DNA of 64,000 bases from NCBI GenBank assembly GCA_031763025.1, contig JASSKH010000040.1:372001-436000 (forward strand), given 5' to 3'. Origin of the DNA: Macrocystis pyrifera (taxonomy: Eukaryota > Sar > Phaeophyceae > Laminariales > Laminariaceae). A program made the translations under genes and the position numbers. The notes beneath the pieces were generated by a model that saw only the letters and a list, made by a program, of their open reading frames with translations, was not told the DNA's origin and made no database searches. Positions 3,803-44,166 of this stretch are shown here, piece after piece. Positions within the stretch are counted from its first letter, which is position 1; every line of letters starts with the position of its first letter.

Positions 3803-4666
3803 TGATACCCCCTCTCTCCTGTTGCGGTGTTATGGTTTGTAGCAATTGTCTCATCATACCTGACAGGCGTTGTCGCCTGCCTTTCTGATGAGCGCCTCGC
3901 CCCTTCGTTCAGAAGACATCTGGCGAAGCAAGCAGCACAACTAATGCAAGAGCTTAGAACTTCTAACATCGTCAAGCACCTCGTGTGAGTGACTAAAGCA
4001 GAGCCAAAGGCATCAACCTGCTAACAGTAGTCGGTCCCTAGGTCCATACTGCCTTGCACTTAGCACTGGCGTCGACGGCAGGACGCTTTTGGTACATTGC
4101 TCGACTCGCCTTAGCTTATGTCGCTCCTGGTTACGCGAGCCAAACCGCTTCCTCGAGTTTTGTTCTTCGAACTAGCGTCCGGGTAGTACTACCTTGTTTT
4201 GCCTTCGTTCGCGTATCCATACTTTCGGACTTGTTGTTGTCTGACTCGCAGTGTCCACGTGGCTACAGCCTTGGAAGTTAGAGGTGTGGGAGTGGGTTGT
4301 GAAGTGCCGTATTTTCGATCTATTCTCCGAATTCTCTATATTGGTTTAGTTCGTGCCTGAATTTTCTATGAACCTGCATATACGGCCCTTCAGAGTGGGC
4401 TAGTGTGTTCCCTCTCCCCTGCTGCGGCAATATGGTTAGTAGCAAATGTCCCCTCATCATACTTGACTGGAGTTATCGCCTGCCTTTCTGATGAGCGCCT
4501 CGCCCCTCCGTTCAGAAGACCTCTAGAGAAGCAAGCAGCAACTAACACAAGAGCTTATAACTTCTAACATCGTCATGCACCTCGTGTGAGTGACCAGAGC
4601 AGAGCCAAAGGCATCAACCTGCCAGCAGTAGTCGGTCCCTAGGTCCATACTGCCTTACACTTAACA
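3803..4666 (+). mobile_element. Very short LTR element, subfamily B (fossil)
   Basis: LTRs at 3803-4065 and 4404-4666 (263 bp each) bracket a 338-bp interior. A primer-binding-site-like TGGCGTCGACGGC directly follows the first LTR. The interior end (4255-4403) matches the end of the region before 641, so subfamilies A and B are related. The LTRs are more diverged than those of subfamily A, which implies an older copy. No protein domain is present. Confidence 0.65.
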
Positions 4667-5150
4667 GACCGCGGCTAACTTGAGACCGCATCCCATAGAA
4701 CGAGTCCCACGCGTTAAACTAAGCTCGCCCACTTCTGAAGACGCCGGGTTTGTGGAAATCGGTCACCTACAGCTCTCGCAATCAACGATTGGTGTCAAAA
4801 CACGACAGACTGATTAAATTATGGAAGTCTGTACGCACTGCGCTATCAAGATTTTTTTTCGCCAATAGGCAAAAAAACGGCCTCATTGCAAGAACGGTGG
4901 GGGCGAGGAGCGTGACAAATGACAGATGCTCCTATCTGGTGAAGCTCAAAACTGCGTTAAGCTACTGCATTGGAGGCTTTTCTAGTGTACAAGCATGTAC
5001 TGTATGTGTGGAGCTTGAGCAGTTAAAAACATCTGCCGCGCTCCCCATTCCCGCCGTGCCTGCGTTCTTAGGGCTCAACCTTACCAACCATAGATACCCT
5101 GGACCAACAACAATAACAACAACAACAGCACCATATCTCCAAAACAAAAA
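4667..5150. other. Intergenic, no gene seen
   Basis: An open frame runs from 4750 on the plus strand, but it has no recognisable domain and continues into the hAT-like element at 5242. I do not treat it as a gene. Confidence 0.4.
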
Positions 5151-5250
5151 CGAATTGCTGATGGTCCTGAGCAGGGTTGTGAACAACAACGACAACAACA
5201 TAATACCTCCCAAACCCAAACGAACTGCTGATGATCCTGAGCAGAGTTGT
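5150..5250 (+). repeat. Two tandem copies of a ~70-bp unit at the edge of a hAT-like element
   Basis: The segment ending in CCTGAGCAGGGTTGTGAAC (about 5150-5190) is repeated as CCTGAGCAGAGTTGTGAAC (about 5218-5253). The second copy forms the left terminus of the element at 5242, so the element end and its flank were duplicated. Confidence 0.5.
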
Positions 5251-5499
5251 GAACCAAAAACGAAAAAAGGCTCGGTCGGCTTTCGGTTCTTCACCGAAAA
5301 GTCGGTCGGTTGCGGTCGGGTGTTTTTTATAGCAAACCGATAAAAAACGAGAAAAAAACGAGAAAAAAACGACAATGCCGGTAGGTTTTGGTCGTTGTTT
5401 GGCGAACAAACCAAAAACAGAATGTCGGTTTTCGGTCGGGAAAAAACGAAAAAAAACAGACCGAAAAGAACGACCTTCGCTTTTCGGTTCACAACCCTG
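5242..5499. mobile_element. 258-bp hAT-like MITE
   Basis: Left end CAGAGTTGTGAACC and inverted right end CAGGGTTGTGAACC form a 14-bp terminal inverted repeat with one mismatch. The flanking octamers ATCCTGAG and CTCGTGAG agree at six of eight positions, consistent with the 8-bp target duplication of hAT elements. The interior is packed with TCGGTCGG and AAAAACGA words in both orientations, as expected for subterminal binding sites. No coding capacity. Confidence 0.75.
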
Positions 5500-6711
5500 C
5501 TCGTGAGACTCCAAAACATCACCTGTGAAATCTGCGTGTCAACTACTAAGAAGGAGATACACAACTACCGTTTTTGACTGGACTTCATTTTTACAATATA
5601 TATGAAACAAGAGACCACCACCCACCACGGCACCACCGAGCGTCACCGCAACACCACCACCACCACCACCACCACCAAGAAGCAGCAGCAGCAGCAGCAG
5701 CAACATGCCGTGGCTCTACGATTACTCATCTTTCCCTGATATACGAAGATGCAACCCGCAACCCGTCTAGCAAACAATCAACCAACCCCAGCACAGCAAG
5801 AGGACTAGAGGCTTGCGAGGTCTGCGAGTGCACGCGGACCCCCTTTGATGTGTGCAATGTGGTCCCTGCATGTTCGCCGAGAGCGGGAACCTCTCTGGGA
5901 ATCATGCTGTTTGGGCCTCTCTCTGGTGCTCTGACTTGACACGGGTGCTCTGTCTGGATGTGGCGGAATAAGGCTCTGGTTTACTACTGCATTGGGCATA
6001 ACCATACGCTTGACCCAAACTCCACATATTATTTCCCCGAAACGACACTGCTGCCCTAACGCGGTTAAAGGGGGTGCCACCCTTTTGGAGCAGCCACCAT
6101 TGCATAGCTGAGCGCACTGAGCACGGTTTTCGACACGAGCAGCACAGGAGGATAGAACCCAACCGTGGCTACATCAGTCCCGTGCACGTTTCGCACGGTG
6201 AAAACGCTAAACCGAACAGACGAACACAGAAGGGAAAGGCAGACAGAGGTCAACATCTCCCATTGATCTCGATAAATATCGGCACGCTGCAGAAGATGTT
6301 GTGACAGTTTCAGTACCTTTTGTTCGTTCGCTCACCTCTACCCCCCACACGCACCCTCGCACCCGACGATTACAGAAGAGCACTGCTCCTCGGAGTTCGC
6401 TTCTCGTATTGAAGGTGTTATTCCTCTCAATGAGGAACCACTCGAACTCTATCAGACTACATCCTGCAAGGCAAAAGATGCACTAACAACTGCCACGTGT
6501 GAGCGATCAATCACAATCGTTAGGAAGAGTAACAGTAGTAGGGTCCGTCCTACTACCCGGTGCCTTATCACTTCACCACCTCCTTGACTACCCTATTCCG
6601 TCCGAAACGCCGTCCCTCAATCCAACCCCTCTTGCTTTTAGCTTGCCCGCCAATGAAATACGTACTCAATATTCCCCGCCTACAAAATCACGCGTTTTTT
6701 TTTTTTTGGTA
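5500..6711. other. Intergenic region upstream of the membrane-protein gene
   Basis: Contains a CAC/AGC trinucleotide tract at about 5645-5705. No exon could be supported. The 3' part must hold the promoter and 5' UTR of the gene starting at 6712, but no TATA box is convincing. Confidence 0.4.
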
Positions 6712-8493
6712 ATGTCAGGTTCGGCGAGATGGCAGCCATCGGCCGCGACGGGTCGAAAGCGGCCTCCCTCGAGGGGAGACGACACCGCGGGAGGAGACGA
6801 AGCCGCCAGCATGGCCGGCGCGTTCTCACTCGCCGCGACTTTTCTCTTTGGGCTTGCCATTTCAAGCGTTTGCAGCAACCTTGCTCTGCAGTTGATTTGG
6901 CCCGCCGACAAGAACACTGATTCTACCGCCGCCACCATCGCTGCCGACAATAGCGACGGAAACGGCGTGGGTGAAACCAACAATCGTGCGGCAGCGCCCG
7001 GCCCTAGCCCCAACAACAGCCGCAGCCCCAGCCCCGGTCCTGCTGCCAGCCCCAACTCCAACCCCAACCCAGAGGAGGAGACGGACCCCGGGCAGGGATT
7101 AACGTGTTTTTTTGTTATACTAGTGGTGTTTAGCGTGTGCATTGCGTTTTCCTTGTTCGTATCTCGGAAAGTGTTTGGGGTCACGATCGATGCTGATTTG
7201 TCGCCGTGGAAGTTGTACGTGATGACGGAGGCGACCATGATGGCTGCCCTCGTGCACTGGTTGTGGGGACCAACGAGGCCTTGGCATAAGTTTGTCCTCG
7301 GCGTGCTTGGCCTCTGGCTGAAAGCGTCTCTCGCCGGGCTCCAATGCATAGCTCGCGCTTCGGGAAGACTCGCCGTTATCGTGCTTTGCGCGGCCGGAAG
7401 GGGAGTTTTTGACGCGGCCGGACTGCTCTTGACGAAGGCCGCTCAGCAGTGGGAGACCGTCCAGCCTGACAACCCCAGCGACGACGGCAACGATGACGGC
7501 GGTGGCGGCGAAGAACCGACTCCGGAACCGGACCGAACCTTGTACCGCAATTTGTTTTCGGAAAGTAATCTGGTGGGTACAAGGGCATTTTTGTCTTTTT
7601 CTTCCCTGAAAAATGTCATTAAAATTGCCACGTTTCACGCATGTATATGTACAACAATAGCACACACCATACTATGTTATAGACACGTGTTCCACATTTC
7701 TTCGGTCCGTTCTTCAAGTCCTCCCCACCGTCAGTGTCAAAGAAGACCCTTCCGCCGACGCGTGTTGGCCGCGCGTGGCGTGTGCCGCGCTGCGCTACCA
7801 CCCCCTCCCGCCCCGCCTCTTATGACCGGCATATTTTGCAGTTTCCTCCGATTCAGATTGACTTCGAGTCTCCTTCCGTCACCAGGACCCCCGACACCGT
7901 GAAGCCGAGGGCGGGTTGCCTCCCCGAAGCTACGCCGGAGATAGAAACGAGCAAAGTCACCCGCAGGAGGCTCGATCGCTCCTGCCGTAGCCCACCGCAC
8001 ACCGTCCCGCCACGGACAGGTAACGTTCCCCGGATGCCGCTCCAACAGCGAGGGGCGGCAGGAAGCACCCCAAGCGAGATCGATGGCGGCCCCGGTTCGG
8101 CGTCGCAGAGCAGCCTCCAAAGGACGAAGAGCGGGGATAACGTCACGGACACGAAGGTCGTTTGGGAAAACGTGAGTGCATGCTCGCTTTGCGTCGCTCT
8201 CTTTCTTCGGGCCGGAAAAAACAAATGTTGATAAACCGGCTCGTGTGCATACGAACTACTACTGTGTATCATTTCTTCACGGAATTGCAAGGAGACGTTT
8301 ATTCTTTGTGCTAACACTCCCACACGGGTCTTGCATTTTCGGACAAAGCGGTACGTCGCTGTGTACTACTGCTGCATGTCGCAATACCTGGAGAGTGGGC
8401 GGTAAACCTGTCCCGCCAGTGACGCGGGTCTCACTGGCGTGGTTTCAACCTTTAGTACGAAAGCCTCATTGTTGTCCGTTTCAGAAGACCTGA
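6712..8493 (+). CDS. Multi-pass membrane protein, three exons, unknown family
   Basis: Exons 6712-7572, 7842-8171 and 8485-8493 all join in phase 0 at GT/AG sites (donors GTGGGT and GTGAGT; acceptors ATTTTGCAG and CCGTTTCAG). They give about 399 residues ending in Lys-Thr-stop. ATG 6712 is the first in-frame ATG; the open frame extends upstream only from a GTG. Hydrophobic segments lie at about residues 34-62, 129-151, 167-186, 192-214 and 216-243. A Ser/Pro/Asn-rich loop (about 65-128) separates the first two, and an acidic Gly-rich stretch (about 252-275) precedes a polar C-terminal tail. No family was recognised. The membrane helices are seen; the location and role are unknown. The three-residue last exon is inferred only from splice-site and phase agreement. 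Confidence 0.65.
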
Positions 8494-10380
8494 GATCTGC
8501 CCGCGGTCAATGGCAAACCGCAAAACCATTTTATGCAAGCAACGGCGCAAAATTCACGCTATGTGGCGGACGCTTGTCGCTTTTTTTCTCGGCTGCTGCA
8601 TTGTGAGGCAGCAACACAATCCAGCGTATTGTGTACCAGGTATACCGTACTCCTTGACTCGATTCCTCCCTCCTCCCGCTCCCCCCAACCCCCGAACCCG
8701 CCTCATGCACTCTAGCTGCGTGCCGATGTGAGAAAGGTCGAGGAAGCAGGTCGTTTCGCCAAGCACCGTCCCGACACGCCGGCACGCAAAGTTACCCACG
8801 AGACGCTCCAGGGCCGGTAGTTCACAGTCGGCGGGTTATTTGTCTGCTTTTTTTTTCCATCCCATTTATTGTCATCGCTCCTCCTTTTCTCTCTCCTTCC
8901 TAGTCGTACCTCAGATGATCTGGGGTCACACAGTAGGCTCTCCCCCCCCCCCCCCCCCCCCCCCCTCCCCACTAAAAGTCGTGCCTTGCTTTATATATAT
9001 ATATATCGAGAGAAGACTTTAGCCCATTGGTGGCAACAGGCCGTTAATTACTGACCTTTTTATTCCTCCAGTGGTACGCACAGTAGGCCAATGGTAAACG
9101 GAGGCGAACCTATGGTCGCCTCAGCCGACGGGGCCCCGCCGGAGGCTCAGCTGGGGACTACTAAGTTGAGCCCTATTTTTGTACGTATAGAAGAAAACCG
9201 CACGGTCTTAACGGAAGCACCGCGCACATTTTTCGATTGGCATGGGGTTACGGCTAAGGAGGGTATACTGTACGTGCGTACATATGCTGGGTGAACACCA
9301 TGAATGGAGAACCACCGCTAGATACTGGCTAGCTCAAGCCGCGCCAACTCGCAGCTCTTTGCGTTACTTTTTTCCGACATGTATGAACATGCCACTAGGC
9401 TTTCTGAGGGGGGGGGGCAAACAACCGAGTCTCGAAATCGACGATAGTCGAATCCATCTTATTTTGGATAAACCCACACGACCATCAATTTCCAAAAGTC
9501 GCGGTGCTGATTCTGCCGAATAGAATCAGAGTGGTGACAGAGCAGAATCATAATCTTGATAGTTCTTACTTGCAATTCGACCTATTTATGTGTCCACTGA
9601 CAATACTGCGTTTCACCTGGGGGTGTGTAACAGGGACGCGAGGGGCACACTAGGGCGGCTTCGGCTCCCAACGTGGATGCTATCGCGGACAGCCTTTTCA
9701 AAACACGGCCCGCTGTCGACGGCTGCCTCAGTGATGCCCCCGCGAGCGTCGCTCGAGGTGCAATGAAGCATGCGACCAGCACACCTCCGGGGCACAAGGT
9801 TGGTCGAGTTCTTTCGTTGCGGGTTGGTATTAGGGAGCGCTTTCGCAGGGTGCGTGGGTGTGTGGGTGGGTGGCCCCCGGGTGGCTATCTCCACCGGGCC
9901 TGATCCCCTCGGGATGAGGGCGGGTCAACCTACTCACGCGCCCGAGGTAGCAGCAGTTTATTCTGCTGTTGCAACGGGAGCGACGGGATAGATTGACACA
10001 CGACACGTATTTCATGTGTGGAAGTGTGGTGAGCGGTGAGATGTGTGTATATCATTCCGTCGGGGGATAAAAAAACTAAAAAAGTGGCTGGATGGATGGG
10101 TGGGTGGGTGGGTGGGTGGGTGGGTGGGTGGGTAGATGCAGCTAGTAGAGGTCGGATCCCCGATGCTACAGCGGTCTTGCTGTGTGCTCAGGAATGAGCG
10201 GCTACCGCGCGCTCTCTCTATTTGCCCTTGTGGTTGGAGCAGATGAACAGGGTACTACACCGCACTGCAGTCGCATTCGCGTGGTCACGGTGTCTTCGGC
10301 CGGAACTTCGATATGTATATGGGACTGGCCCGCACCGGTAGTTAATTGTTGCAGCGCATGCCGGCGGCGTCTGGCCTTGG
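8494..10380. other. Intergenic, simple repeats only
   Basis: Holds a poly(C) tract (about 8942-8965), a TA microsatellite (about 8992-9006) and a (GGGT)n tract. The open frame at 9091-9294 follows a pyrimidine-rich stretch ending in CAG and could be an exon, but nothing confirms it. Confidence 0.4.
10090..10134 (+). repeat. (GGGT)n microsatellite
   Basis: Ten or so consecutive GGGT units, bordered by GGAT variants. Confidence 0.9.
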
Positions 10381-10383
10381 CTA

Positions 10384-10487
10384 TTACGGGGGGGCATAGT
10401 AAATAGGGCTAGATATTAATAGTAAAAAAGCGAAATATATAGGTTTTCGTGCGTACCGTAGGTCCTATTTAATATGGTCCCCCGTAA
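10384..10487 (+). mobile_element. TA-target MITE, copy 1
   Basis: Starts TTACGGGGG, ends CCCCCGTAA and is flanked by TA on both sides. The interior carries the family core GGTTTT-GTGCGTACCGTAGGTCCTATT. It matches nine further copies in this window. A TA target duplication points to a Tc1/mariner-type system. Confidence 0.8.
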
Positions 10488-10502
10488 TAGAGACCATTCG
10501 CC

Positions 10503-10560
10503 CCCTATGGATGGTCATACGACTACGGCCATGCATGATAACGCGTACACCCTTCCCTCT
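10503..10560 (+). mobile_element. SINE-like repeat, 3' end fragment, copy S1
   Basis: Carries the family signature GGTCATACGACTACGGCCAT, then ATGATAACGCGTACACCC and a pyrimidine tail. 5'-truncated. It lies 15 bp after MITE copy 1. Confidence 0.6.
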
Positions 10561-11355
10561 CCTCCCCTCCCTTCCCTCGCTTCCCTCTCCCCCTTCCCTC
10601 CCTTCTTCCCTCCCCCCCCTCCCTTCTTCCATATGTTTGTTGTGAACATTTTGTGGCTTTTCTCGTGTATTTTTGCGCGCTTGATTTGGTGGCGAAAAAT
10701 TGGCGATTCACGAAGATATTTCGCTTTTCGGGAGGGTCAGAAAACCCGCTGGCAGCGGAGACGGCGCGCGGCATGGACGCTCCCCAACCCTCGACGAGGA
10801 GGATCGACGATATGGACGCAGACCAGGCACTACCAAGAGGGGGAATGAAGGTGCGATACTCCTGCTGATTGCCGCGGCGGCGGTGGAGGTCGTTAAACAG
10901 AGCAGGTGGTGGGTTCTCCAGTCGTTTCCGACGGCGTTTTGTTTCTCGCTTGGTCGGCGTTTAGGACTTCGCGAGGAAATCAAGCGGTTCATATATGCAC
11001 ATCGCTGACTTTCACGTGTGTGTTGGGGGGGACTTTCTTTTGCCAAGAGTTTGCTTTTTTTTGCTGTTTTGTGTGTTCGTTTGTTTGTTTCATTTGTTTG
11101 TTTGTTTGTTTGGTGGGTTGTTTGCTTGTTTCTTTGTGTGTTTGTTTTTTCCCACCACCTGCAAACGTACCAGGAACGCCAGGTGTGAGCTCTGCGTTGA
11201 CGGCCCCGACAGAGCAGACCGACGGGATATGAAACTAGCCGGGCGTGCCAAGGTCACCGGCGCAAGTATTATCGTCGCCCTTGCCACTTTTGGGCTGATG
11301 CTCAGCGGTTGCCCCATGGTCCTCCGGCCGGTAGCCCGCGCTAATTGTTCCTCTC

Positions 11356-11404
11356 GCCCATACAACTACGGCCACGCATGACATAAGTACACCCCCTCTC
11401 CCCC
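11356..11404 (+). mobile_element. SINE-like repeat, 3' end fragment, copy S2
   Basis: Diverged signature (CATACAACTACGGCCACGCATGA) followed by AAGTACACCCCC. A GATTATCGTCG...GCTCAG-GGTTAC stretch occurs on both sides of it, suggesting a local duplication. Confidence 0.45.
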
Positions 11405-11549
11405 ACGATTATCGTCGGGCCGTGTGCTCAGTGGTTACCTCATCTCCCAGGTAGTCCGCTCTACTTTCTCCCCCCCCCCCCCCCCCCCCCGGTAATTTCT
11501 CCCCCGTAATGAGGGCCCAACTATTGGAGGTGTCTCTATTAGGAGCAGG

Positions 11550-11632
11550 GCCGGTGCTCCGTCTCGAAAGGCATGCGAGGGTCCATGGACATTCGACTCC
11601 AGAGATGCATTACATGATTACACCCTCCTCCT
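11550..11632 (+). mobile_element. SINE-like repeat, degenerate copy S3
   Basis: The GGTGCTCCGTC...GCGAGGGTC...GCATTACATGATTACACCC order of the family is kept but eroded. It ends about 50 bp before exon 11683-11832 and so lies in the upstream intron. Confidence 0.4.
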
Positions 11633-11682
11633 GCCCTTCCCCCCATCTTCCCCAGTCCGCAAGTCGGCCGCTTGTAGTCCAG

Positions 11683-11832
11683 GGGAGCGAAGTTCACTGC
11701 TGCACGGTAGACCCACAGGTGAGGAAAGAGATGTGGGCCCACACTCAATACTTCGAGGACATGGGCGGCGAGGCTGTGCCCGGTGTGTTTGAATACCTGC
11801 CGGTGACCGTGCTCCGCCCGAGCTCCAGTGAG
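11683..11832 (+). CDS. Paralogue-pair gene 1, EVHCC exon
   Basis: An open 150-nt exon (50 codons, phase 0 to 0) between TAGTCCAG and a GTGAAT donor. It encodes EVHCC, then DP, EMWA, EAVPG and YLPVT motifs. The exon at 39094-39237 on the minus strand encodes the same order (EVHCC...DP...EMWA...EAMPG...YLPVT) with about half the residues identical and the same phases. Agreement in sequence, length and splice phase is good evidence that this is a real exon. No known domain was recognised; the vicinal cysteines could bind metal. It is followed, after an intron carrying a 731-bp TIR element, by the WYVQPGGR exon. Confidence 0.7.
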
Positions 11833-12576
11833 GTGAATAACCGACCCCTGCGACAGTAGACGCAGTTGGTAAAAAATACCGTCGCGAGTTTCGCGGGATC
11901 TCGGCACGTGCGTACCAGGCGTACGTAATGTCAAAGACAAAAATAGGGCACCAGCTGTGAGATTGAGGATTTCGTCGTAAATCGTATTTGCAAGCTTTTT
12001 TTTTGTTAGCCGTGTGTGTTGTAAAGTACTGTACTGCCCGGTACGAGTGACGATAAAAAAAAAAGAAAACATGCACTTCCAAGTATATATATACCTGGTA
12101 TATGCCATCAGAACCCGAAGAGAGGCCGGGGAGGAGAACCTGTTGATATCTCGGCACGTGCTATAAGGTCAGAACTCGAAGAGAGGGGGGGGGGGGAGAG
12201 GGAGGGGGTCCGGCGGTCGTGACTGTCGACAGGGCACCCTGGCGACCGACCCAACGCCTGCAATGCAGCAGAGCACCAAAGTAATCCACGCTTGGACCCG
12301 CATGACAATACAAAAAACGGGTATCGTGCTCCCTGACTACAACACGGTAACGTAGATGCATGGTACGACGGGGGTACAAACGTACTGCTATTTTCTGAAG
12401 CTGTTTTTTTCTTCGGGGAGCTCTGCACCCCACCCACATAAACCCTGAACTCGAGAAAACATGAAGGCATAATCCGATACACAAATGACATGGCCTATAT
12501 ATATAGGTTATACGATTTTTTTTTCTTGAAAAAAAAACACCAATGACACCCCCCCCCCCCTGTGATTTCTCAGTTA

Positions 12577-13307
12577 GGCTGTTTCCTATGCGTTTCGATT
12601 TCGAGCATCAGATTTGTATGTTTCTATCTCAAAAATGAATGACCCTGCTTATGCAGTCCAAATATGCAAAAACCGAGGGGAAATTTTTCGACTTGGGTCA
12701 TCAGATTTTCAAATCGAAAAATGGCATGCTCTCTAAACTCAAGATGATATCCACGACGGCAAATAGCAGCAGAACGATCGATGAGTTGGATGGTGACACA
12801 GCTGTATAGCGACGTTTTTCGCGCCCGACGCGCGGGCGGCGCGTCCCTCCGTCTCCGTGGCCAGACTACAATCGGCTGGCGCGGGCTCGGGCCTAGAGAC
12901 CAAGAGAAGCGCACTAGGCACGCACCTCTCCGTGGACACGTACTCGTAGACTACACTGCTGTACAGCAGCCAGCAGCAGCAGTCAGTCACAAAATGGAAC
13001 GCAAAATACCAAGAAATGCTGGCTCTAGCGCACTCGCCACGTCTCTTCGCCGCCAGACCAGAGGCAGTCAGCCTTGGCTCGGACGCTTGGGTCCTACGCG
13101 CAGGGCAGCGCACCCAGCGCGTCTCTTCGCGGCGCCAAACCACAACAACAGCAGTTGGTCTCGGCATTTGCTCGAATCTCTACACGCACAATTTGTAAAT
13201 CTAATTTTTCAGCATAGGAAGACCGTTTCGATTTGGCAAGTTCACATCTGAAAATACAGTCGGGTCAAAATCTGAAGCTCGAAAATCGAACCGCATAGGA
13301 AACGACC
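12577..13307. mobile_element. 731-bp TIR element with TTA target duplication (PIF/Harbinger-like)
   Basis: Left end GGCTGTTTCCTATGCG and inverted right end GGTCGTTTCCTATGCG continue as an imperfect inverted repeat of about 45 bp (TTCGATTTCGAGCATCAG in the left arm). TTA is present immediately outside each end. A 3-bp TWA duplication is typical of PIF/Harbinger elements. The GC-rich interior (about 12800-13150) differs sharply in composition from the AT-rich ends, and no transposase is visible. It sits in an intron of paralogue-pair gene 1. Confidence 0.75.
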
Positions 13308-13563
13308 TTACAGGAGCCCCGCCAATTAGAAAACGTGCTTGGCCAACTAAAGTGCTATTAATACGGGATACTCTATCGCAGGAGCCCTCGGTAGCGCAGC
13401 TCGTTTGCCTGCTTCCGACGACAGAAACTCGGAGCCTTCCACTCTCCCATGAACCTTCGGGTTCCATATCTCTCTCTGCACCCCCCCCCTCTGTCGCTGA
13501 GCGCTGTTACAACAAGCCAACCATTTTTTTTCGTGTTTTTTTTTTGGGGGGGGGGGGAAACAG

Positions 13564-13686
13564 TTCTCCACAGACCGGGGGCGGATGTGGTACGTGCAGC
13601 CCGGCGGCAGGGCGGGGAGAAAGGAGTGGAGCGAGGAGGAGGGGCGCATCATCTGGGAGGTGCCGCAGGCGATACTTTTCAGCAAG
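13564..13686 (+). CDS. Paralogue-pair gene 1, WYVQPGGR exon
   Basis: 41 codons, phase 0 to 0, with acceptor GGAAACAG and donor GTGGGG. Encodes WYVQPGGR, then W-x4-EGRIIW-x-VP and a final FSK. The minus-strand exon 38239-38364 encodes WYVQPGGR...W-x2-GGRIIW-x-VP...FLK, with one residue of length difference in the aligned part and identical phases. The family is unknown. The conserved tryptophans and the PGGR and GRIIW motifs suggest a small folded domain, which is inference. A G-rich tract lies directly before the acceptor. Confidence 0.75.
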
Positions 13687-14165
13687 GTGGGGAGGCGGGC
13701 GTTGTTCGACCTTGTTCTTGCTTTAGACACGCGTGCGATGGGGGATATATATATATATATAGGCGTACAGAAGGAGGGGTCCGTCCCCCCCTAAGGCGGT
13801 GTGGGCAAGGCGGCGGTATCCCGCTATAAGGCGGTCAAAAAATCGCTTGGCGCCACTGGAGGAATAATTGCACTCATAACCTGGAATGAATAAGGCGGCC
13901 TCCCCCAATAAGGTTATCAATTGCTTTGGCACACCGACGCTTCACTGGGGGACCCCTACTGCACGTTCGTTGAAACGGATAGCCTACCGCATGACGCGCA
14001 AGATCGCACATACGCACACCCCGGGCCGGACAAATTTCAACTCCAAGCTTCTCTCGACAATGGGGAGAGCGTAAAAAAATGCCGTGGAGAGATGGCGAGT
14101 CTTTATGGAAAAAATAATATGTCGACGATAATATTTTTTCCAGATGCCACAATTTACCGCTGTTG

Positions 14166-14169
<4 letters not shown>

Positions 14170-14249
<80 letters not shown>
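14170..14249 (+). repeat. 80-nt uninterrupted poly(C)
   Basis: Every base from 14170 to 14249 is C. This is by far the longest homopolymer in the window. It follows TTGTGTG and is followed by AAGTTAAAG. Long frames of proline or glycine read through it are artefacts. Confidence 0.95.
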
Positions 14250-14251
<2 letters not shown>

Positions 14252-14393
14252 GTTAAAGAGAAAATCGGCTGTGGAAATTCGCTCCAGCATGGGGGTTGGT
14301 TCGTTATCTTGCGCGCAGTATGCGGCACTACTGCTCACGTTCAGTCAGCGTCCAGCAGAGGGTTCGATACCTTGCGCGTTACATACGTTACTG

Positions 14394-14432
14394 CTACTCA
14401 TGCTCAGTCAGCCGCTGACTGAGCATGAGTAG
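14394..14432. repeat. Perfect 39-bp palindrome
   Basis: Two 19-nt arms (CTACTCATGCTCAGTCAGC and its exact complement) are separated by a single C. The left arm is itself the end of a ~60-bp unit that occurs twice just upstream (about 14296-14357 and 14360-14412, sharing CTTGCGCG and TGCTCA-GTCAGTCAG). Confidence 0.9.
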
Positions 14433-15136
14433 TGAGTTATCCCTTCTGACCAACAAGTAGCACCCAAGTCTTCTCCGGTTCTTCGCTCGAGGGAATGTTT
14501 CATCCCACCCAGCAAAAACAAACGCCTTGTGAGAAACAATGCGAAAGCTCGTCCCGATAAGTGCACAGGCCCGTGCATGGGCCAGGAACAGACGGAACAA
14601 ACATTGCAGAAAAAAGTGACACTTGCTACGTACGGTTGAGGGAATAAAACCTGAAAAAAAAATATGGGGCCCCTCGCTTCGGGGGCTCCGCAACTTAACC
14701 CAACAACCGTTTTTGTTTTTTAGAAGCGTTGCAGGCTAAATAAAGCCCGCTGCACAATGGGCGCGTAGGCGTCTTGAACAAAGGGAACAAGTAGCACCGG
14801 GCCTCTCGTGATTAACATGAAATCAGATGTTTGGCTAACATCCTTACGTCCCAATTTCGGCGGAGAAAGAAGGGGGTATATAGAATGCCTGCGATTTCCT
14901 ACACAGACGGCGAGCGCCTAGGCTCGTATGATACCTACTTCTTTTAGTTTTTTCAGTTTTTAAGCTAGATTTCTCAACCCCTCTACATGACTGGACTGCC
15001 GTTTTGAGGACAATTGGGAGGGGGAGTTACTTGAAACTACTGCAGAGTTAAACACATGTTTTTGTGCTGTTCAGTAAAAACTGTTTCTTACGAGAGGGCC
15101 GATTTCTTTTTCTTTTTTTTTTTTTCATTACCACCT

Positions 15137-15353
15137 TCACTTTCCAGCTTCTGGACAAAGCCGTGGTCACTCACAGGTATCGTCGTCCCTTCTCCCCCCC
15201 GGTACGTGCCTGCATTTTTTTCACGCATAGGGTTCAGCATTCCCACCGCTCGTCGACGTTCATTAAATGCTGCTGACTCACGCACTCGCGCTTTCCGCAA
15301 ATCTATTTTATGCAAGGAAAAGCCCATACGAGTATGTGCACTCGGGTATAATT
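15137..15353. repeat. Dispersed ~215-bp repeat, copy 1
   Basis: Matches 31172-31385 over its length (CACTTTCCAGCT-CTGGACAA-GCCGTGGTCAC, then CCGGTAC, GGGTTCA and CTCGGGTAT landmarks). The shared minus-strand reading retains LNP-R and SDHG..Q/REL-ES similarity, so it may derive from a coding sequence. The origin was not recognised. Confidence 0.55.
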
Positions 15354-17187
15354 GAACCCTCGTGATTGATTTCGGTAGGAACGAGGACCACCCACCAAGC
15401 CACCAGGGACGCCAATACTCTGCCGTAAAGTACGTAGTGGATGAAAATATATTGGGGCGTGTTGTCAGTGTCAGTACCAGTGCCGGTGCCAGTGCCGGTG
15501 CCCTTAAGGAGTCCCGTCCGTCAAAAATATTTAAGACAAAAAAGGTACACCGCTATCGTACCACGCGCCACATACAAATCGGATTCCCTACTTGAGGTGT
15601 TCGCGAATAATTTCGTTGGGACCAATTTCGTTGTTTTTTCTCGTGGTCTGTTTTCTGAATACAAATGAACCCAACCCTTAGAGTCTTCCCCAAAGAGTTG
15701 CAACCCACCCCAAGGATAACTACATAGCAAAAGGTGGCCCGAAACGCCACTTCAAAAACCTCATTTGCTATTGGGTTCGGTTAGCTCCTACACCATGAAG
15801 GTTCCATGGATTGGGCTCATTTTTTTGCAGGGAAATAATCATTTCTTGGGCTGGGTTAAATGTTGCTACGAAAGTTCCGTGGATTGGATTCATCTTTGTG
15901 TGAGAAACTAGTTATCAAGCGTCGTCTAGGGAGAGTTTTCCGCGTTTAATAATCATGGTTGCCCCAAGCGTTTCGCAGCTCCCTGTGTTGCAATGGTCTC
16001 GCGGTAGTGCCGGTATATATGCGCCAGCCAACAATACCGGCACTATATACAGCGGCAAACCAATCGGCACTAACTACTCCGCACACCGCCACACTGACGA
16101 ATCCCATCTGAGGTCCCAAGCGATTCCGCAGGCACTGCAGCGGGCAACCGGCACTATAGAGGGGGGCACTACCGTGTTGCACTTCGGGGACACACCCTAC
16201 CTCGGTAGCCCGGGCTGCTTCGTGTGGCCGATGCTGTACTATAACCCAGTCATTTTTTTCCATAATTTGTTTCCCTTTCAGGTCGCTAAGGGGATACAAG
16301 AGTCCCCACCTCGAGCAGATCATGATCTATCTACAGCGCATGTAGATCATCTAGTTCCTCACCAGCCTTAGTGAGATTTTTCGCGGGGTCTGGGTAGGAC
16401 AGATCCAAACCAGGAAACATGTGCTGGATCGTGCAGAACATACGGGTCCTACCTGGCAACACGACCTAGATCATACACGACCGGGAATATATGATTTATC
16501 TATTTTAAAGACCCAGATCATCAAGTGAGAATCGATTATCTGTCCTGATCGTTTGGTCTCTTTAAATGACAGTTACGTACCGGTTAGTACCATTGCGTAT
16601 TGGGGATTATGTGACTCTTGACATCTGAGGTTGTAAGTCGTGACGCGCAAGGCTCCCTCCTTCTCTGCCCCTACCGTGTGGGAGGCCAATAACACATGCC
16701 CTGAAACATCCATCCATAGACAGTCATACATTCTGGGCTACCGTTGTCCGAGGCTACAAACGTGTCCGAGGTGTAGTTAGATTATCCTTTCTAACCGACT
16801 GGCCCTGCCCTGCCGCGTTTCGGAACCACGTCCATCAGCGGGTAATTTCCCGGTACCCCTGAGGCCGTTGCGTGTACACATGATACAAGACCCACGTTTA
16901 CACCATCCTCGTATTCTGGTCTGACAATATGCGGCACAGCAGAGAACGATGGTCGGCATGGCAGTCAGTCCATCCACGTCTTTTGACCCTCGCGCCCCTT
17001 TCTCTCCCCAAGGCATTTATATTCCGCCATCGATTCCGGCGCCCATTCACCTCTCAGCTCACGTCTCGCACTCCCGCCCCCCGTCCTCGCCGCCTCCACC
17101 AATCTCTACCGTGTTCCCCCCTCGACCGAACCTTTTCGTGTGCCCACCGCCACCACACACGTTCTTCCGCGCGCTTGTACGTAAAAG

Positions 17188-17375
17188 GTGCCTGCAAAAA
17201 CCGACGAGAGTTGTGACGTATGCCGCAGGAAGGGACACCAGTGCAACTGGACCCCTGACATGCTGGAGTGTCTCTGCGACTACTGCGCGGACGCCCCTCG
17301 CCGGCACTTGGACGGGTGCGGCCAAGCGCGCGATCTCGGCTTCAGCTGGGCCAGGGCGTGCGACTGCCTGGGGGA
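17188..17375 (+). CDS. Paralogue-pair gene 1, cysteine-rich CxxC/CADAPRR exon
   Basis: An exon of 188 nt, bounded by AAAAG and a GTGAGT donor. The upstream in-frame TAA at 17182 requires a splice acceptor here. It encodes 62 residues plus two bases: CDVC at residues 9-12, NWTP at 20-23, CDYCADAPRR at 30-39, ARD at 47-49 and ARACDC at 55-60. The minus-strand exon 37823-37636 aligns without a gap over all 62 residues with 31 identities, the same length and the same phases. Paired CxxC and CxC cysteines suggest a zinc-binding module, which is inference; no named family was recognised. Downstream it either splices to 17458 or stops at TGA 17377-17379, a stop that is also present at the same position in the paralogue. 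Confidence 0.8.
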
Positions 17376-17457
17376 GTGAGTTAGCACACCCCATGCGCGG
17401 AGGCGGAGGTCTGCTGTCGTGCTCGGGACTTGTTGTTGTGTCTTGCCGCCCATACAG

Positions 17458-17608
17458 CAGTGGTTGCAGGATAGTAGAAAGCAAACGAGGGTTTCAAGTG
17501 GCGGCGTCGTACGCCGAGGGCGGACGTCGACACGTCGTCGTGTTTGCCTGGAGAGGCGAGAGACGACCGGGTACAACCCCCCCTCCCCCGCGGGCGCGCT
17601 TAGGCTAA
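17458..17608 (+). CDS. Paralogue-pair gene 1, possible terminal exon
   Basis: Acceptor CCCATACAG, phase compatible with the GTGAGT donor at 17376, then an open frame to TAA at 17606. Encodes SGCRIVESKRGFQV, ASYAEGGRRHVVVF, then a Pro/Arg-rich tail. A second, diverged copy of the whole unit follows at about 17640-17850 and still encodes ASYEAGGRRTVVVF. No equivalent was found beside the paralogue, so the true C-terminus may instead be the in-frame TGA at 17377. Confidence 0.45.
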
Positions 17609-17629
17609 GGCCTTCTGCCGATATCTAGA

Positions 17630-17850
17630 CTTGTTTACTGTTGTGTCTTGTCGTGCGCAGAGTTATTGCCGTTTCGGGTCGGGAGAGCAAGCGTTTTCGA
17701 GTGTTGTGAGATGGCATCGTATGAGGCCGGGGGACGTCGAACTGTGGTTGTGTTCCGAAAAAAAACTAAAGACGAGTGGTTACAGCACCCTCCCTCCCCG
17801 CCCGCCCTTAGCACAAGGCGAGGTGTTTTGTTCGTGCTCGATGGTACTGT
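17630..17850 (+). pseudogene. Tandem duplicate of the terminal exon and its intron flank
   Basis: About 210 bp repeating 17425-17630: the same CTTGTT-TGTTGTGTCTTG pyrimidine tract, an AG acceptor, ESKR, then ASYEAGGRRTVVVF, and the same C-rich stretch ending in TTAG-AAGGC. The reading frame changes between ESKRFRV and ASYEAGG relative to the first copy, so it is probably not a functional exon. A third partial pyrimidine tract follows at about 17855. Confidence 0.55.
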
Positions 17851-17879
17851 GTTGTAGTACGTCTTGTTGTCGCGCACAC

Positions 17880-19940
17880 ACCATTGGTTGACTTTATACA
17901 GAGAGTATGTGATGAAAGGTCAGGCCCGGCCAACGGAGGAAACGCGTGACGGCCGTTAGCGAGCAACAGGCCGAACGTTATCGATACCCAGTGCTGATGC
18001 GGTATTGGTTGATACTCTAAAACGCCCTCCTACATATGAACGCCGCCTCCGCAAAACGTCCATCGCTGGTACTCGAGGCTGGTGGGTAGCGAATATCGCT
18101 CAATTGTGTGACTGTACCATTATGGTGAACGTGACTGTACTATTATTATGGGTGAGTGTGTATATAAGTACATCGCAGTGAACATTGGCATGGCCTGTCC
18201 GCGACTGACGGCTGGAATGCATCTAGGAGCAAACGGGATAGGCGAAGGGCATTATGTATTGGGAGCGGCGAGTATGCTTGTGTGACTGTAACATGGTGAA
18301 CGTCTTTACTCTGTGTACTAGCCCCGTGACCACCCAGAGACTGCGGGTACGAAATGTCCTTCTCTAGTGCGATATTAGCCTTGCGGCGACCTAGTGCGAC
18401 TAACGCTGGGGTGTATATCGGGTGTAAGAGTTACTTTTTTCTGTTTTTTCGTTTTTTTTTATTTCCTGTCTTGAAGGGTTTTACGCAAGGGTTGTCGGAG
18501 GAATCTTAGGCGGGGAGCGGCAGTCGACATACCCAAGCTGAGCGTGCCCTGCGGCCGCTGAACGCTTTGGGCAGACTTGTGGGAGAGAATAATTGCTCAA
18601 ATATTATTCCACGTGGGATACAGCCCAAAGGTTTATATGTACAATGATGCAATGATATGGGTGACGAAGCGAAGGAGAGAGGTTAAAGGAGAGCCCTCAA
18701 TCAGGGATGGCTGCCTCCCTCATCCCACGAGGTCGTCGATGAGCGTATCAAACTGCGGAGGTTGCCGAAAAATGTTGGAGCCAGCTGCTTCACTGCGCGA
18801 ACAACTTCGTTACGTATCACACAGGTTCATTAACATACACATGGGATAGTCCCTGTCCCAAGGTTCAACTGTGCAATACAGTGTGCGACGAAGCGAGTCA
18901 AGAGAGGATAACGGAGACCACTGGATCGAACATAGGTGTCTCTCTCATCCCGCGAGGCCGTTGACGAGCGTCTCAAACGCAAACATTGCTGAAACACCGG
19001 AATATTCTGGTTTTTCTCTACTCAAGCACACACTTCTACCGTTCGCATGCTTACCGCGCCTCTCCCCCCTGCAGTCGGAAAACGTCGCTGGCATCAGCAA
19101 GACGCAAACAGGGCGAACCAACGATAATCACGCCCCATGCATGTGAAGCACTCGGACTAAACTAAACATGCAGCAAAAAATGAGTTCAACGCTTTTAGGG
19201 GGCTACGTAGAACGACAAAAGTAATGAAGACAAGGGTTTCGTATTGTCAACCGTAAGAATAAGCATGTTGCTTCATGCGTGTCGCGCAACTGCTTGCAGC
19301 TTTTTCTCGCGACCACTTAACGAGAAACACAACAGCCCGTGGTGTTGCTTGCGTTCGTCCGGTGTAGAAATCGAAATATGTAACTCGTCGTTTTTTTCAC
19401 TCTGAACTCTCAAGTAGACGTAACTTACTCAACCCAGCCCAACTGCAGACCTACTGTAGAGGAGAGGCATGTAACGCGCGCGCCCCCCGGCGCTAAAACA
19501 TCCCTAGCCTCCCGGAATGAGTGGGCACGGACAGCAGCGTGCCCCTGTTTGCGCATATTTCTCTCTATCTCTCTCTCTGACGCGTGGCTTCGAACAGCTT
19601 CAACGCAGTCAACTACTGCATGGCAGGGTATGCCCGCAAGAGGGCCAGAAAGCTCCGAAGACGCGAAATAAAATGGGTACAAATTATACCTCTCTTTGAC
19701 CCCCCCAACACACCACTCACTACGTGAGCTAGACATCCAGGGTACCGTTTTTTTTTTTTTTTTTTTTTTTTTTTTTGGCGGTCGCCCACAGCTGGTCGTC
19801 GAGTTAGATCATTTGTGCGAGGTAAAGAACCTTTACTCTGCACAACGGAATCGATCGTATCACGTAGTGTTCAAGGTAAGCCACCCAAGAGGCAGTTACA
19901 TAGTACTTCCATTGCTGTCTCCGGAAGTGGCTACACCGGA
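17880..19940. other. Intergenic, local tandem duplications
   Basis: A TGTGACTGTA-CAT-ATGGTGAACGT motif repeats at about 18110 and 18280. Two ~230-bp tandem units at about 18600-18835 and 18840-19015 share GACGAAGCGA and CATCCC-CGAGG-CGT-GA-GAGCGT landmarks. A poly(T) of 28 lies at about 19749-19776. No gene is supported. Confidence 0.45.
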
Positions 19941-19944
19941 AATT

Positions 19945-20190
19945 AAACTAACTCATTGAAGCTGTCATCCATATGCAAGTCCGCCTCACAAGCGGTTCCC
20001 AGTAGGATGCAGCTCACCCTTCATGCGACTCGCCGGATACCTCACGGCGCTTCGCGCTTGGTGCAAGCAATGTCTGCCTGGTCGGTGAAAACCCGACATG
20101 CTCCGTCCCGGCATTGTAGGGATGCGAGGGTCTACGGTCATACGACTACGGCCATGCATTACATCTCTCCTATCGAGTACACCCCCACAC
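19945..20190 (+). mobile_element. SINE-like repeat, long copy S4
   Basis: Starts near AACTCATTGAAGCTGTCATC and ends GGTCATACGACTACGGCCAT...TATCGAGTACACCCCC. It is followed directly by a second copy in the same orientation. At ~245 bp these are the longest versions in the window and probably near full length. A GGTTCCCAGTAGG box at about 19995 vaguely resembles a pol III B box. Confidence 0.65.
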
Positions 20191-20202
20191 ACCGGTAAAT
20201 AA

Positions 20203-20423
20203 ATTAACTCTTTGAAGCTGTCATCCATGTGCAAGTCCGCCTCACAAGCGGTTCTTAGTAGGATGCAGCTCACCCTTCATGCGAGTCACCCAACAACTTC
20301 ACAGCGCTTCGCGCTTGGTGTAGCATGTCTTCCTGGTCGGTGAAAAACCCACGTGCTCTGTCCCGGCATTGTCGGGATACAAGGGGCTATGGTCATACGA
20401 CTACGGCCATGCATGATATCGAA

Positions 20424-20461
<38 letters not shown>
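20203..20461 (+). mobile_element. SINE-like repeat, long copy S5 with a 37-nt poly(C) tail
   Basis: Same order of landmarks as S4 (AACTCTTTGAAGCTGTCATC...GGTCATACGACTACGGCCAT), ending in GATATCGAAT and then C from 20425 to 20461. The poly(C) tail starts where the other copies have GTACACCCC. Head-to-tail with S4. Confidence 0.7.
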
Positions 20462-20462
<1 letters not shown>

Positions 20463-20548
20463 ACTTCTCCGCAAGCGCCGCCACCGAGACAAGAATAAAC
20501 CACAATGGCGCTTACTATAGCCTAGAGCTAAAGGACGGTACAGCAGTA

Positions 20549-23500
20549 CTATTGCGGGTCTTGTCGCTTCTCGCCTCGCTGTGGTCTGTTGCTCTCTCCT
20601 AGGGCCTCCATCAAGGGCTCGAAGTCCGTGACGAACCAATCAGCGCCCTTCCTCACCGCCTCACGAATCGTTACTCCCCCATACCCGATAAACGCCTGCG
20701 CCGGAGGCTTCGCCTGTGGCGGTAGCGTGACAGGTACCGATACGTTGCCCCGTGAATTGAGCGCGATGGAACCGCAGTGGCCGAGTCTACGGAATATAGG
20801 TAGGCAGGGTGTGCGTGCTTGCTTGATTGTGCTACCGTTAGAATCCCGGCCGCGCACGAAAACATCCAACACAAACAACTAAAAAACGAAGCGGAACGAG
20901 ACGAAACCAAAAAAGCAACAAGATGAGCAACGCGACCGATCGGGTGCAGCAGCCTGATCTTGACACAAAAAAGGGGGAGAGGCAGAAAAGAGTGACATAC
21001 CCGCACACATTAGAGGGTTCAACCGACTACAGCGCGGACAGTTTGCGCCAGGTGTGTGGGGTGTACTCATTATCATGCATGGCGGTAGTCGCGTTACCAT
21101 AGACCCCTCGCCTTCCTATGATGCCGGGACGGAGCACGTCGGATTTTCACCGACCACGCAGACGTTGCTTGTACCAAGCGTGGGGCGCGAAGTAAAACAT
21201 CCGTCGTCACGCAGCAGTGACCTACCTCGTCGTGCGACAGGCCGAGAAACAACACGTCATACCCTTTTATGCGACGTCGTTACTCGGGTGCCGGGGTTTC
21301 CAGCAGGGCTCTTGACAACTTCGGCAACAGCAACAACACGGTGACGAGATCGTGTGTACGGCTAAACCGTTGTCATAACAGCCGGCCGAATACACCGCCC
21401 AGGACCAGCCGACACGCCGGCGCGGTCCGTCACACGGCTCACCTGCATGTCCGTTGCCCCGTCCCCTACCATGACGACGCAGTCGTATTGGAACTCCTTC
21501 GACAAGCTGAAGGTTTGAGGAGGGGCGGACAAAACGCCGGAAACGCAGTAAGCGCGTGGCGAGCACGAGCGAGAAAACATGAACAAAAAAAAAAACTGTC
21601 CGAACGTCTGACTCGCGTGGGCAACCAACACCTTACTGTAGTGGCACGCCCTCAAGATACCGCCTCTCGACGTTCAACAGGGGTATGTGACCTTGCCGTC
21701 CCCGGAGCAAGACGAAATGACGCCACAAAAACACCACACATACATGCATACCTGCTGTAAAGGGTCAACTATCAATTTACAACCAGTAATGTCTACGCGA
21801 GGGAAAAAATGCGATGAATACCACAATACACCACCCCCTGCCGAGCAAATGCAGCACCATCCCCCCCCACCCACCCGCCCACCCACCTACCTACCCACCT
21901 CACACAGCAATCGCGTGGAGGCGTACCCGCACTCCCTTGCAACAAAACAAAAACGTACAAACGTACGCAAACACGCAAACCAACCTACGGCAAGAATCAC
22001 ACCACTTTAAACGAGGGCAGAGCGCCAGCCCCGACCGACAAGTTCCCGACTCACAGGCCGACAACCTTGGGCTTCCCGCCGTCCCTAGACGTAGGCTCGT
22101 CCGCATCGAAGCCGGTGTACTCCCCGGTAACGCCGTCGAACTGGAGGGAGTTCGCGAATATATTGCCTCGAGGGATGGACAGCTGGTCCGCCACAGGCTC
22201 GATCATCTTTTTTATTTTAGGAGGGGGGTATAGAATGCAGGGAGAGAGGGTGGGCACAGGCAGGGTAGACCGTCGGCGTGAGCGCCGGCTTTGATCTGAT
22301 ATAAGAGTCTTGACTTCCGACTTGGGGTTTGACCTTCGATATTAGATTCGAGATTCATCAAGTCATACTATTTCAATTTGTTATTTTCCCGATTCCCAAT
22401 TTGATAGTCTTCATTCGGCGAGGAGGCAACGATATGCAACGCAATCTTCGGCCAGAAAATTCATTTGCTCCACGTACTTTCGCCTTTGTTCTCGAAACCT
22501 CATGAGGATTGGAGTCCAACCTATGACCAGGTGCGTCAAAAAGCAAAACAAAGAAACACACAAAACACCTTGCAGGCCTCACAAGGGAGGAATAGAAGAC
22601 GCGCATGGTATCCGTCCCCCATGCCACTCCTTGCTCCCTCCATTGCTCGCCCCATCACAATGAAAAACGCACCGCAAATATCGGTCGTACCGTCGGTAAT
22701 ACAGCCAACGAACGAAACAGAAAGAGAATGAGCTCGCACCGAACAAAATTAAGTCGACCAGAAAGGGCTAAACCACCGACTGAAAAAACGCACAACTGCT
22801 GCCACTCCCCGCCTGCTCGCCTGTACCCTCTTTCAGTAGCCGTGCCCAGTGGCGCGGACCACTACCCCGGCGCACCCGGGGGAACCACGCTGCAGGCGGG
22901 CCGGGCCCTCACCTGCCGAAAGCCTCCAGACACCAGGTAAACTGCAACCCCTCTGCTGTGCAACAGAGACACCAGCTCCGGAATACCTGCGCCACAGCCA
23001 TGAATGGCGAGAGTAATCGGTGATCGGGGGGAGGGGTGGGGACCGGTGCAGGACGATGAACAACAACACTCTTTGTGTTTGCCAGAGTCGAAGAGGACGT
23101 ATCACGTTGCGCGCGAAGCGAGCAACTCACAAGGCGGATCACGCCTCCGCGGCAACCGGTGCCGTTATCGTCCGGTTGATAAAATAAAAAGGAGGGAGCA
23201 ACTGCTATGGCCCACGAGGAACGAGCGTGACGAACAAAACCGAGGCCGAGTCAGAGAAAAGGGAGGACTCCCCTCAATGGTCGCGAAGAGATACGTACCA
23301 CTATTCCATTTTTGTTTCACGTACAGCGACACCAGAAGAGCGGTGCTTTCTTGGAGCTGAGACGGGTGCTGCGATAGGCGTAGCTTTGGCTAGTTTTTGT
23401 TGTTTTCTGAATGACGGAGCTCCCCAACCCGAAATCGTCGGAACGCCTTCGTTTTTTTTTCTGGCGATATTGCTGTTTCGCACACCTATTCAAAGGTCAT

Positions 23501-32725: not shown

Positions 32726-34670
32726 CCTTTCTCGGCGTACGACAGACGAAGGACGACGGGGACCCCACCCAGGCGGGAGGCCGACCACGAATATCAATTT
32801 GTTTGTTGTTGAAACTCACATAAATTTGTCCCCCAAAAGTGAACAATTACGAGCGAGTGAATTTTCTAGTTCACTTGTGTCAACGGAAGCTTCTGGATCT
32901 CAGGTCTCGGAGGGATGGTGGAATGACTCAGTGAACATGAGATAAGGTGGACAAAGTTTTGCGGAACTACTTGCCGGTTCAAAGGCAATACAGCAGTATA
33001 CATGCCAGGTAAACAGCAGTTCCAGGCACAGGACACCAATTTTTAAGAAACAGGACTTGTGGACCACGCTGAGTTTCATATTTTGAGAAGGGGTGCGTAC
33101 GTTCTCGCACACTTATTTCGGTTTATAACGACTCCCGAAGTTCTTATTTCCATGTAAATATCAGCTTACGCCTTTCGTATTCCTTGTTTTGTTACTTTTC
33201 ATACCATCAATAGGTGTCGTGTACTACTATACTACTTGTACATGTGGTACTACCGTACATAGAGTAGTGCGACGGTTGTGCTATCTGTGCAAGCTACAGA
33301 CTGCCTCTGGCGTTTCTACAGAGTAATACGATCACCGCGAGACAGCTCAGATCCACCATATGCACTACTGCTGTACCGTGCTTGCACTCCCTCGTTATAC
33401 AAGCAATGTAGCATTGGCACAGCATTGGCGCGCTGACCCTCGAGGTCTATGGTGTAGGTCGACGAGGAAGCCGTGGACTTCGCATTCGTGCGCTCTGAGG
33501 CACCAATCAGGTAAATACTTGGTATGCGCTTCGTACAAACCAGGTACGGCAGCAGTATTTGAGTCTGCTGCAAGTGCAACGCCATGCATGCTTGCATATC
33601 ACGTTGTTGCACCGCAACCCGCTGCTGTTGCAGCTTACGCATACCTGGTTTAAAATGTACAACTATTCCCTTCGAGCGCGTGTCATTATTCGTACGAGGG
33701 TGCTGCGTATGGATTGCGAGCAATCATGCACCACAGGTACATACGTACCAGGTAAACAGTGTACGTGTATACGCTCTCGTGCTGCTGTTGTACTACTAAT
33801 ACTACTGCTGTACTGCTGACTAGGAGTAGGGTTCCAGACACCGTTTGCTGCTGTGTGTGAAGTGGGAAGTGCTTCCATCCGAGCCCGTGTCACTGCATGC
33901 AGTACCACGGCCGCAGTCGTGCACCTCACCCGTTACGTACTGCTAACTGCTACGACTGCTACCAGTCAGGTTGACGAAGTTAATGTGTACCTGGTTGATG
34001 TGTACCAGGTATATACACGTGTACGGAACGGCGGTGGAAAGCAGAAAGTTGCCCCTGTATACGTGACTCCTCGTACTGGAGTCCCTGTGATACGTACGTA
34101 CGTAGGTTGTTCGTCGCTGGAACGACATGATTGCCAAGAACTGCGGTATCAAAAACCACCACCACCACCACCACCACCACCACCACCCCAGGAAATGCCC
34201 TTGAAGGAAGCTTCTGACTCTCGCCGCCGTTTCGACAAGAGGTAACCGGAAGCCGCTCGCTCGCTGCTGCAGCCCGAACTCTTTGCGTGCCCTTATCTCT
34301 CAATGCAGCGATTGCGTTGTACTTGCAGCGTAGTATACCAGGTACCTGGTACAAAGTAAACATGCATCGACTGCTTGCTATTTGTATTGTCTGATGTCCA
34401 TTTGCCCCTCGTACCTTGGCCCTGTTGACTGTTGAAAGAGGAACCAAGGGGGCTCGACGGCATGCTACCGACAGCGCGAAGTAGCTCCTCGCTGTAAGCA
34501 GTGGACGTAACATCGTGGGTAGAGAAATCGCGTGCTCCTGCTGCTGTGGTGCTGTGTCCCGCAACAGCAGTCAATGGCAACGACCTCTCACTGCCATTGA
34601 CAGCAGGTGCTACACGCTGTACGAAGGAAAACCAGGGAGTTCATGAAGCAAATGAAGCTGCCTCAACAAG
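32726..34670. other. Intergenic, no gene seen
   Basis: Rich in TACCAGGTA/TACCTGGTA and ACAGCAGTA words and a (CCA)11 tract at 34154-34187. Several short frames exist but none has a domain or supported splice sites. Confidence 0.4.
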
Positions 34671-34674
34671 GGTC

Positions 34675-35110
34675 AGGTTTAACGGTCGGATCCTGATCCT
34701 GGGGGGAGAGACGGTGTGGGTGGTGCCCGCCCTCTTGCTTCATGCCGTGCAGCAGTGATGTTGCAGAGTGACGCGAGAAATATCCACCTTTGTTGGACAC
34801 GATGTGCGAGCGCATGTCACAAGCTAGGCCCCGCGGGCGGAGATAAGGTACCGGGAAAATGGAAATTAAATAATATTTATACTGCAGTCAGTTGTGCTAC
34901 ATGTATTAATAATATTATTGTAGGAAGTTTCAATAGTTATATTATGAATACTAATAGTAGTAATTACGCTGGCCAACTACGAGTACGACGGCCGTAGCAC
35001 ACCTCGTGTCGTGGCGAGCAAGCTCCGTCCTCAAATCGCAGATCGCGCAAACCTCGCCTCTACCTTCTACCTGCTGCGTGACCTGCACGTCTCCTGTCAT
35101 GTTTTGTTTC
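34675..35110 (-). repeat. Repeat unit U1 (inverted relative to U2)
   Basis: Reverse complement matches 35145-35605: GGCGAGGTTTGCGCGA, GAGGACGGAGCTTGC, GTTGGCCAGCG, TATCTCCGCCC, CATCGTGTCCAACAAA and GGATC-GGATCCG appear in the same order. U1 and U2 are head to head around a ~35-bp centre containing CGTACGTACATACGTAC-like sequence, giving a potential hairpin with arms over 400 bp. Confidence 0.7.
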
Positions 35111-35144
35111 CTCTCGGTACGCATACGTACATACGTACACAATA

Positions 35145-37635: not shown

Positions 37636-37823
37636 CAGCGCTGGCAACGGCAAGCCCTGGCCCGCTTGCATCCGAAGTCACGCGCGTCGTAGTTCCCTTG
37701 CAGCTCGCGGCGGGGGGCGTCAGCGCAGAAGTCGCAGATGAGCGCCAGGTTGTTCGGGGTCCAGTTGATCTGTCCTTCCTTCTGGCCACATGTCGTGCAC
37801 CCCTTGCCAGATTCCGCCGGCGC
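37636..37823 (-). CDS. Paralogue-pair gene 2, cysteine-rich CxxC/CADAPRR exon
   Basis: 188 nt, acceptor TTTGCAAG, then 62 residues plus two bases ending at GTGACC. Encodes CTTC (residues 9-12), NWTP (20-23), CDFCADAPRR (30-39), ARD (47-49) and ARACRC (55-60). Ungapped 50% identity to 17188-17375, with the same length and phases. Of the cysteines, those at 9, 12, 30, 33, 58 and 60 are conserved between the two copies, while those at 19, 28 and 43 of gene 1 are not. The conserved six would fit a zinc site. It ends either by splicing at GTGACC or with the in-frame TGA that overlaps that donor. Confidence 0.8.
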
Positions 37824-44165: not shown

Positions 44166-44166
44166 A

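Follow-up and report, generated by a model that had tools for sequence, protein, structure and literature searches.

Two convergent paralogous genes of Macrocystis pyrifera probably end in a selected three-exon block with zinc-finger-like cysteine spacing

We analysed a stretch of 64,000 nucleotides of Macrocystis pyrifera DNA (the window), in which two sets of three exons, here called copies A and B, resemble each other. Copy A lies on the plus strand and consists of exon 1 (11683-11832, EVHCC...YLPVT), exon 2 (13564-13686, WYVQPGGR...GRIIWEVP) and exon 3 (17188-17379, the cysteine module), the last being coding to 17376 and including a TGA at 17377-17379. Copy B lies on the minus strand, with exon 1 at 39237-39094, exon 2 at 38364-38239 and exon 3 at 37823-37632, coding to 37635 and including a TGA at 37634-37632. 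All six stretches are open. In tblastn searches of the whole window the two copies shared 51% identity over 45 amino acids in exon 1 (E 4e-14), 62% over 34 columns in exon 2 (E 1e-10) and 53% over 59 amino acids in exon 3 (E 3e-19). For each of the three exon peptides the partner exon was the sole strong non-self match, the next best in the window being a match of B exon 3 to 10844-10746 (E 0.012) that crosses a stop codon. The same three pairs were recovered when the window was compared with itself in all frames, amid many repeat matches. Local matches between regions A and B gave best scores of 65.1, 62.0 and 45.8 bits. When region B was shuffled 40 times with its dinucleotides kept, no score exceeded 25.4 bits (mean 21.3), and the opposite strand of that region gave at most 20.4 bits. 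A fourth real match, of 36.6 bits, is probably an out-of-frame shadow of exon 3 present in the comparison of the regions. Our results bear out the preliminary description in that the exons match one by one, with order and relative orientation kept. The same description called the genes unlinked, which does not hold: both lie inside the same window, convergent and tail to tail, with 20,252 bases separating their stop codons.

The divergence between the copies was measured by the NG86 method over 137 aligned codons. This yielded a pS of 0.577 and a pN of 0.290 (bootstrap 95% interval of pS-pN, 0.158 to 0.428), corresponding to a dS of 1.10 and a dN of 0.37 and hence to a dN/dS of about 0.33, that is, to purifying selection. 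In this codon set 23 of 45 residues are identical in exon 1, 21 of 33 in exon 2 and 31 of 59 in exon 3, and differences at codon positions 1, 2 and 3 number 44, 38 and 62. Nucleotide similarity is strong for exons 1, 2 and 3 (z 9.3, 9.3 and 23.6), whereas the six 200-nt flanks showed no clear similarity between A and B (z 0.5, 0.9, 2.8, -1.4, 1.3 and 1.2), the flank upstream of exon 2 (z 2.8) giving the single value that is not plainly null. GC content is 0.56-0.66 in the exons versus 0.44-0.56 in four introns. The dN/dS ratio, together with flanks and introns that bear no clear similarity, indicates that both copies evolved as protein-coding sequence. A recent non-coding duplication, in which similarity would extend equally into the introns, is rejected on these same exon and flank values. 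The earlier proposal of real, selected coding exons with diverged introns is thus sustained, and the window almost certainly holds two selected paralogous coding genes; the pair is a genuine, though probably unremarkable, duplication. The many repeated stretches of the window would also suit a different origin, in which a single gene of a transposable element or virus was inserted twice and left these exons as remnants. We regard this as extremely improbable, given that the introns fall at matching places, that the flanks are unlike and that the window contains two copies only; moreover, four scans of IMG/VR viral contigs returned 31, 15, 24 and 11 pattern matches, none of which was confirmed as a relative.

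The exon borders bear on how each gene ends. In both copies, exons 1 and 2 are preceded by AG and followed by GT and have lengths that are multiples of three, so that the phase 0-0 previously assigned to them fits. The A exon 2 acceptor is preceded by a run of G and stands without a good pyrimidine tract, and the acceptor of B exon 3 is AAG. The phase 0-2 given earlier for exon 3, on the other hand, is not established, because an in-frame TGA stands in register in the two copies (CDCLGE-TGA in A, CRCQRW-TGA in B). The GT that had been taken as the donor of exon 3 overlaps this stop codon in each copy, and the candidate donor is good in A (GTGAGT) and weaker in B (GTGACC), so that both a terminal exon and a donor are possible readings. 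Comparison of 4000-21000 (plus strand) with 34000-50000 (minus strand) revealed no further credible paralogous exon pair past exon 3 among the best 60 matches (E up to 0.5); within these 60, the best other match had an E of 0.012 and was not colinear. Exon 3 is therefore best read as the last exon of both genes, and is likely to be so.

A different end can be drawn for copy A within its 3.5-kb intron 2, which also contains an unbroken run of 80 C (14170-14249). Three small pieces on the plus strand (15148-15176, 15379-15429 and 16282-16345), each preceded by AG and the first two followed by GT, join exon 2 in frame and add 47 residues and a TAG. If exon 2 usually joined these pieces, the cysteine module of A would belong to an alternative or disused transcript. 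However, nothing else in the window matches the 47-residue reading better than expected by chance (best match elsewhere, E 0.47); it has no Pfam match, its donors are weak and its pieces were picked by eye from a long intron. Furthermore, exon 3 is about as similar between A and B as exon 1 is. We consider this ending very unlikely.

Further exons can be proposed upstream of the three-exon block in both genes. For copy A these are a 5′ exon with an ATG start and four hydrophobic stretches (A-I, 6712-7572), open and followed by GT, and two exons with AG and GT borders (A-II, 7842-8171; A-III, 9634-9798), all on the plus strand and in phase 0. For copy B they are, on the minus strand and likewise in phase 0, an open 5′ exon with an ATG start, two hydrophobic stretches and GT after it (B-I, 46352-45168), and a second exon with AG and GT borders (B-II, 44769-44329) in which a repeat, HTAPP...GTV, occurs twice, its halves being alike at z 9.8. 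The structure predicted for B-I is all-helix, at low confidence (mean pLDDT 53.0). The resulting conceptual models comprise 606 amino acids in six exons for A and 695 amino acids in five exons for B, both open in phase 0 throughout to the ATG. Such models are not selective, since each upstream region offers 13 distinct open phase-0 blocks to choose from. The assignment of 6712-7572 to the gene of copy A is tentative, and the N-terminal exons as listed are rather doubtful. Similarity between A-I and B-I was not significant (z -0.5, reached by 202 of 300 shuffles), and neither was that between A-II and B-II (z 1.1, 290 of 2000 shuffles), control open reading frames scoring up to 56 versus 44. 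The best partial test, which compared A-II with the first half of B-II, gave z 2.9 (34 of 2000 shuffles), a score equalled by open reading frames elsewhere in the window. Homology of the two genes upstream of the block is rejected as unproven. Among upstream and neighbouring open reading frames, Pfam matches stayed below cut-off: Trypan_PARP (E 0.00021, 21.7 bits against a cut-off of 100), DUF6618 (E 0.013), HSM3_N (E 0.28) and RhlB (E 0.67).

Repeats are frequent in the window. Most of a tandem array at 42230-43165 (3.9 copies of a 240-nt unit) reads open on the minus strand (GRYFSHLL...), its last unit being in another frame than the rest, and a second array at 46699-47562 holds 4.5 copies of a 195-nt unit. 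A short dispersed family is found on both strands at 27.3, 27.9, 28.6, 31.6, 52.1, 54.7 and 58.4 kb. Searches with Rfam and with ARAGORN (bacterial code) returned nothing.

In the full alignment of A and B, 76 of 153 ungapped columns are identical. Eight cysteines, five tryptophans and one histidine are common to both copies, the cysteines at alignment columns 6, 7, 100, 103, 121, 124, 149 and 151 and the histidine at column 5; three more cysteines are found in A and one more in B. Exon 1 thus contributes HCC, exon 3 a CX2CX17CX2C spacing that is exact in both copies, and the end of the block a CXC, with the stop codon three residues past it.

No family had been recognised for these sequences in the preliminary description, and the databases agree: Pfam, NCBIfam and PHROGs gave nothing credible for the module, and the PDB, searched by sequence, no convincing relative. 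The rows found for the module, phrog_13030 (E 0.48) and PLD_C (E 0.18), are below curated cut-offs. With Pfam at E up to 10, no zinc-finger family was reported for either exon 3, in a test in which the HMMER filters discard most weak matches. One further PDB sequence search gave nine matches, all at chance level (E at least 1). Two scans of GTDB contigs yielded 49 and 19 pattern matches, none confirmed; this miss, like that in IMG/VR, is expected, because the collections are viral and prokaryotic and the gene is eukaryotic. The absence of relatives from these family libraries, solved structures and viral and prokaryotic contigs says little about novelty. In the open-access texts retrieved we found no description of the module, and its motif strings, searched as text, turned up in three papers, each with a single short string of unrelated meaning. 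By eye, GKDVWYVQPGGR has a likeness to the methyl-CpG-binding domain; Pfam lent this no support, and the assignment was rejected.

The closest resemblance in cysteine spacing is to GATA (class IV) zinc fingers, for which two publications give the motif CX2CX17-20CX2C (PMC8367991, PMC5693882). The cysteine pairs of the module are 17 residues apart in both copies, inside this range, and a tryptophan lies between them, as in GATA fingers. GATA zinc fingers also carry an LCNAC signature, which the module lacks; unlike them, it has no Pfam profile match at E up to 10 and adds a conserved HCC, a CXC and a Trp-rich part. The residues after the last cysteine pair of CX2CX17CX2C (ADAPRRHLDGCGQARD and ADAPRRELQGNYDARD), where a GATA finger would have a basic region, are of mixed charge and not strongly basic. 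GATA membership is not claimed, since the Pfam search gave no profile match. The spacing of the module does not appear to fit the EsV-1-7 motif, C-X4-C-X16-C-X2-H. EsV-1-7 proteins form a cysteine-motif family that is expanded in brown algae (PMC7457493).

The cysteine spacing, the five shared tryptophans and the stop codon close behind the CXC lead us to read the three-exon block, of about 153 residues, as a single C-terminal domain that closes at its stop codon and has one metal site or perhaps two. In exon 3, the CX2CX17CX2C would hold a single zinc ion. A second metal site, around a Trp-rich middle (YLPVT...WYVQPGGR...GRIIW.VP), may be made up of the HCC from exon 1 and the CXC at the extreme end. 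Judged on spacing, the chances that the cysteines bind metal are evenly balanced; a structure prediction for the exon 3 pair, made from two sequences, was unusable (mean pLDDT 45.5, pTM 0.27). The product could be a small domain that binds protein or nucleic acid and, on weaker grounds, it may form the C-terminal end of a longer protein whose N-terminal part is rich in helix and partly hydrophobic.

Should that N-terminal part direct the module to the secretory pathway or the cell exterior, disulfides might form between the cysteines instead, and the same paralogues would carry a luminal or extracellular domain that does not bind metal. The hydrophobic stretches of A-I and B-I agree with such a location, although the attachment of these exons is unproven. 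The copies also differ in several of their extra cysteines. The sole PDB sequence match with an E below 0.001 was to a disulfide-rich plant protein (1jxc, 25 positions, E 0.00089); with other queries it was weak (E 0.12 and 0.017) and the first CXXC was unmatched, and we judged it probably compositional. Moreover, metal sites show two CXXC pairs at zinc-finger spacing and a CXC more often than disulfide modules do. A disulfide-bonded module is in our view unlikely. The preferred reading, convergent paralogues about 20 kb apart that each end in a selected, homologous three-exon domain of metal type, has as a whole a probability of about 0.6. A stronger version, in which the block is an undescribed eukaryotic domain of one algal lineage, with a two-site zinc module (CXXC-X17-CXXC; HCC with CXC) and a Trp-rich core at the C-terminus of membrane-associated proteins, is in our view unlikely as well.

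As linked inverted duplicates under purifying selection and with diverged introns, the two genes resemble lineage-restricted paralogous pairs, and beyond such pairs in general they offer nothing except the uncatalogued module, which opens no general question by itself. If it is absent from other lineages, the module is one more uncatalogued domain among the numerous orphan genes that complex algae carry and, if it is truly lineage-limited, the paralogue alignment is a ready-made seed alignment. In practical terms, two independent copies validate six splice borders where recognisable genes are lacking.
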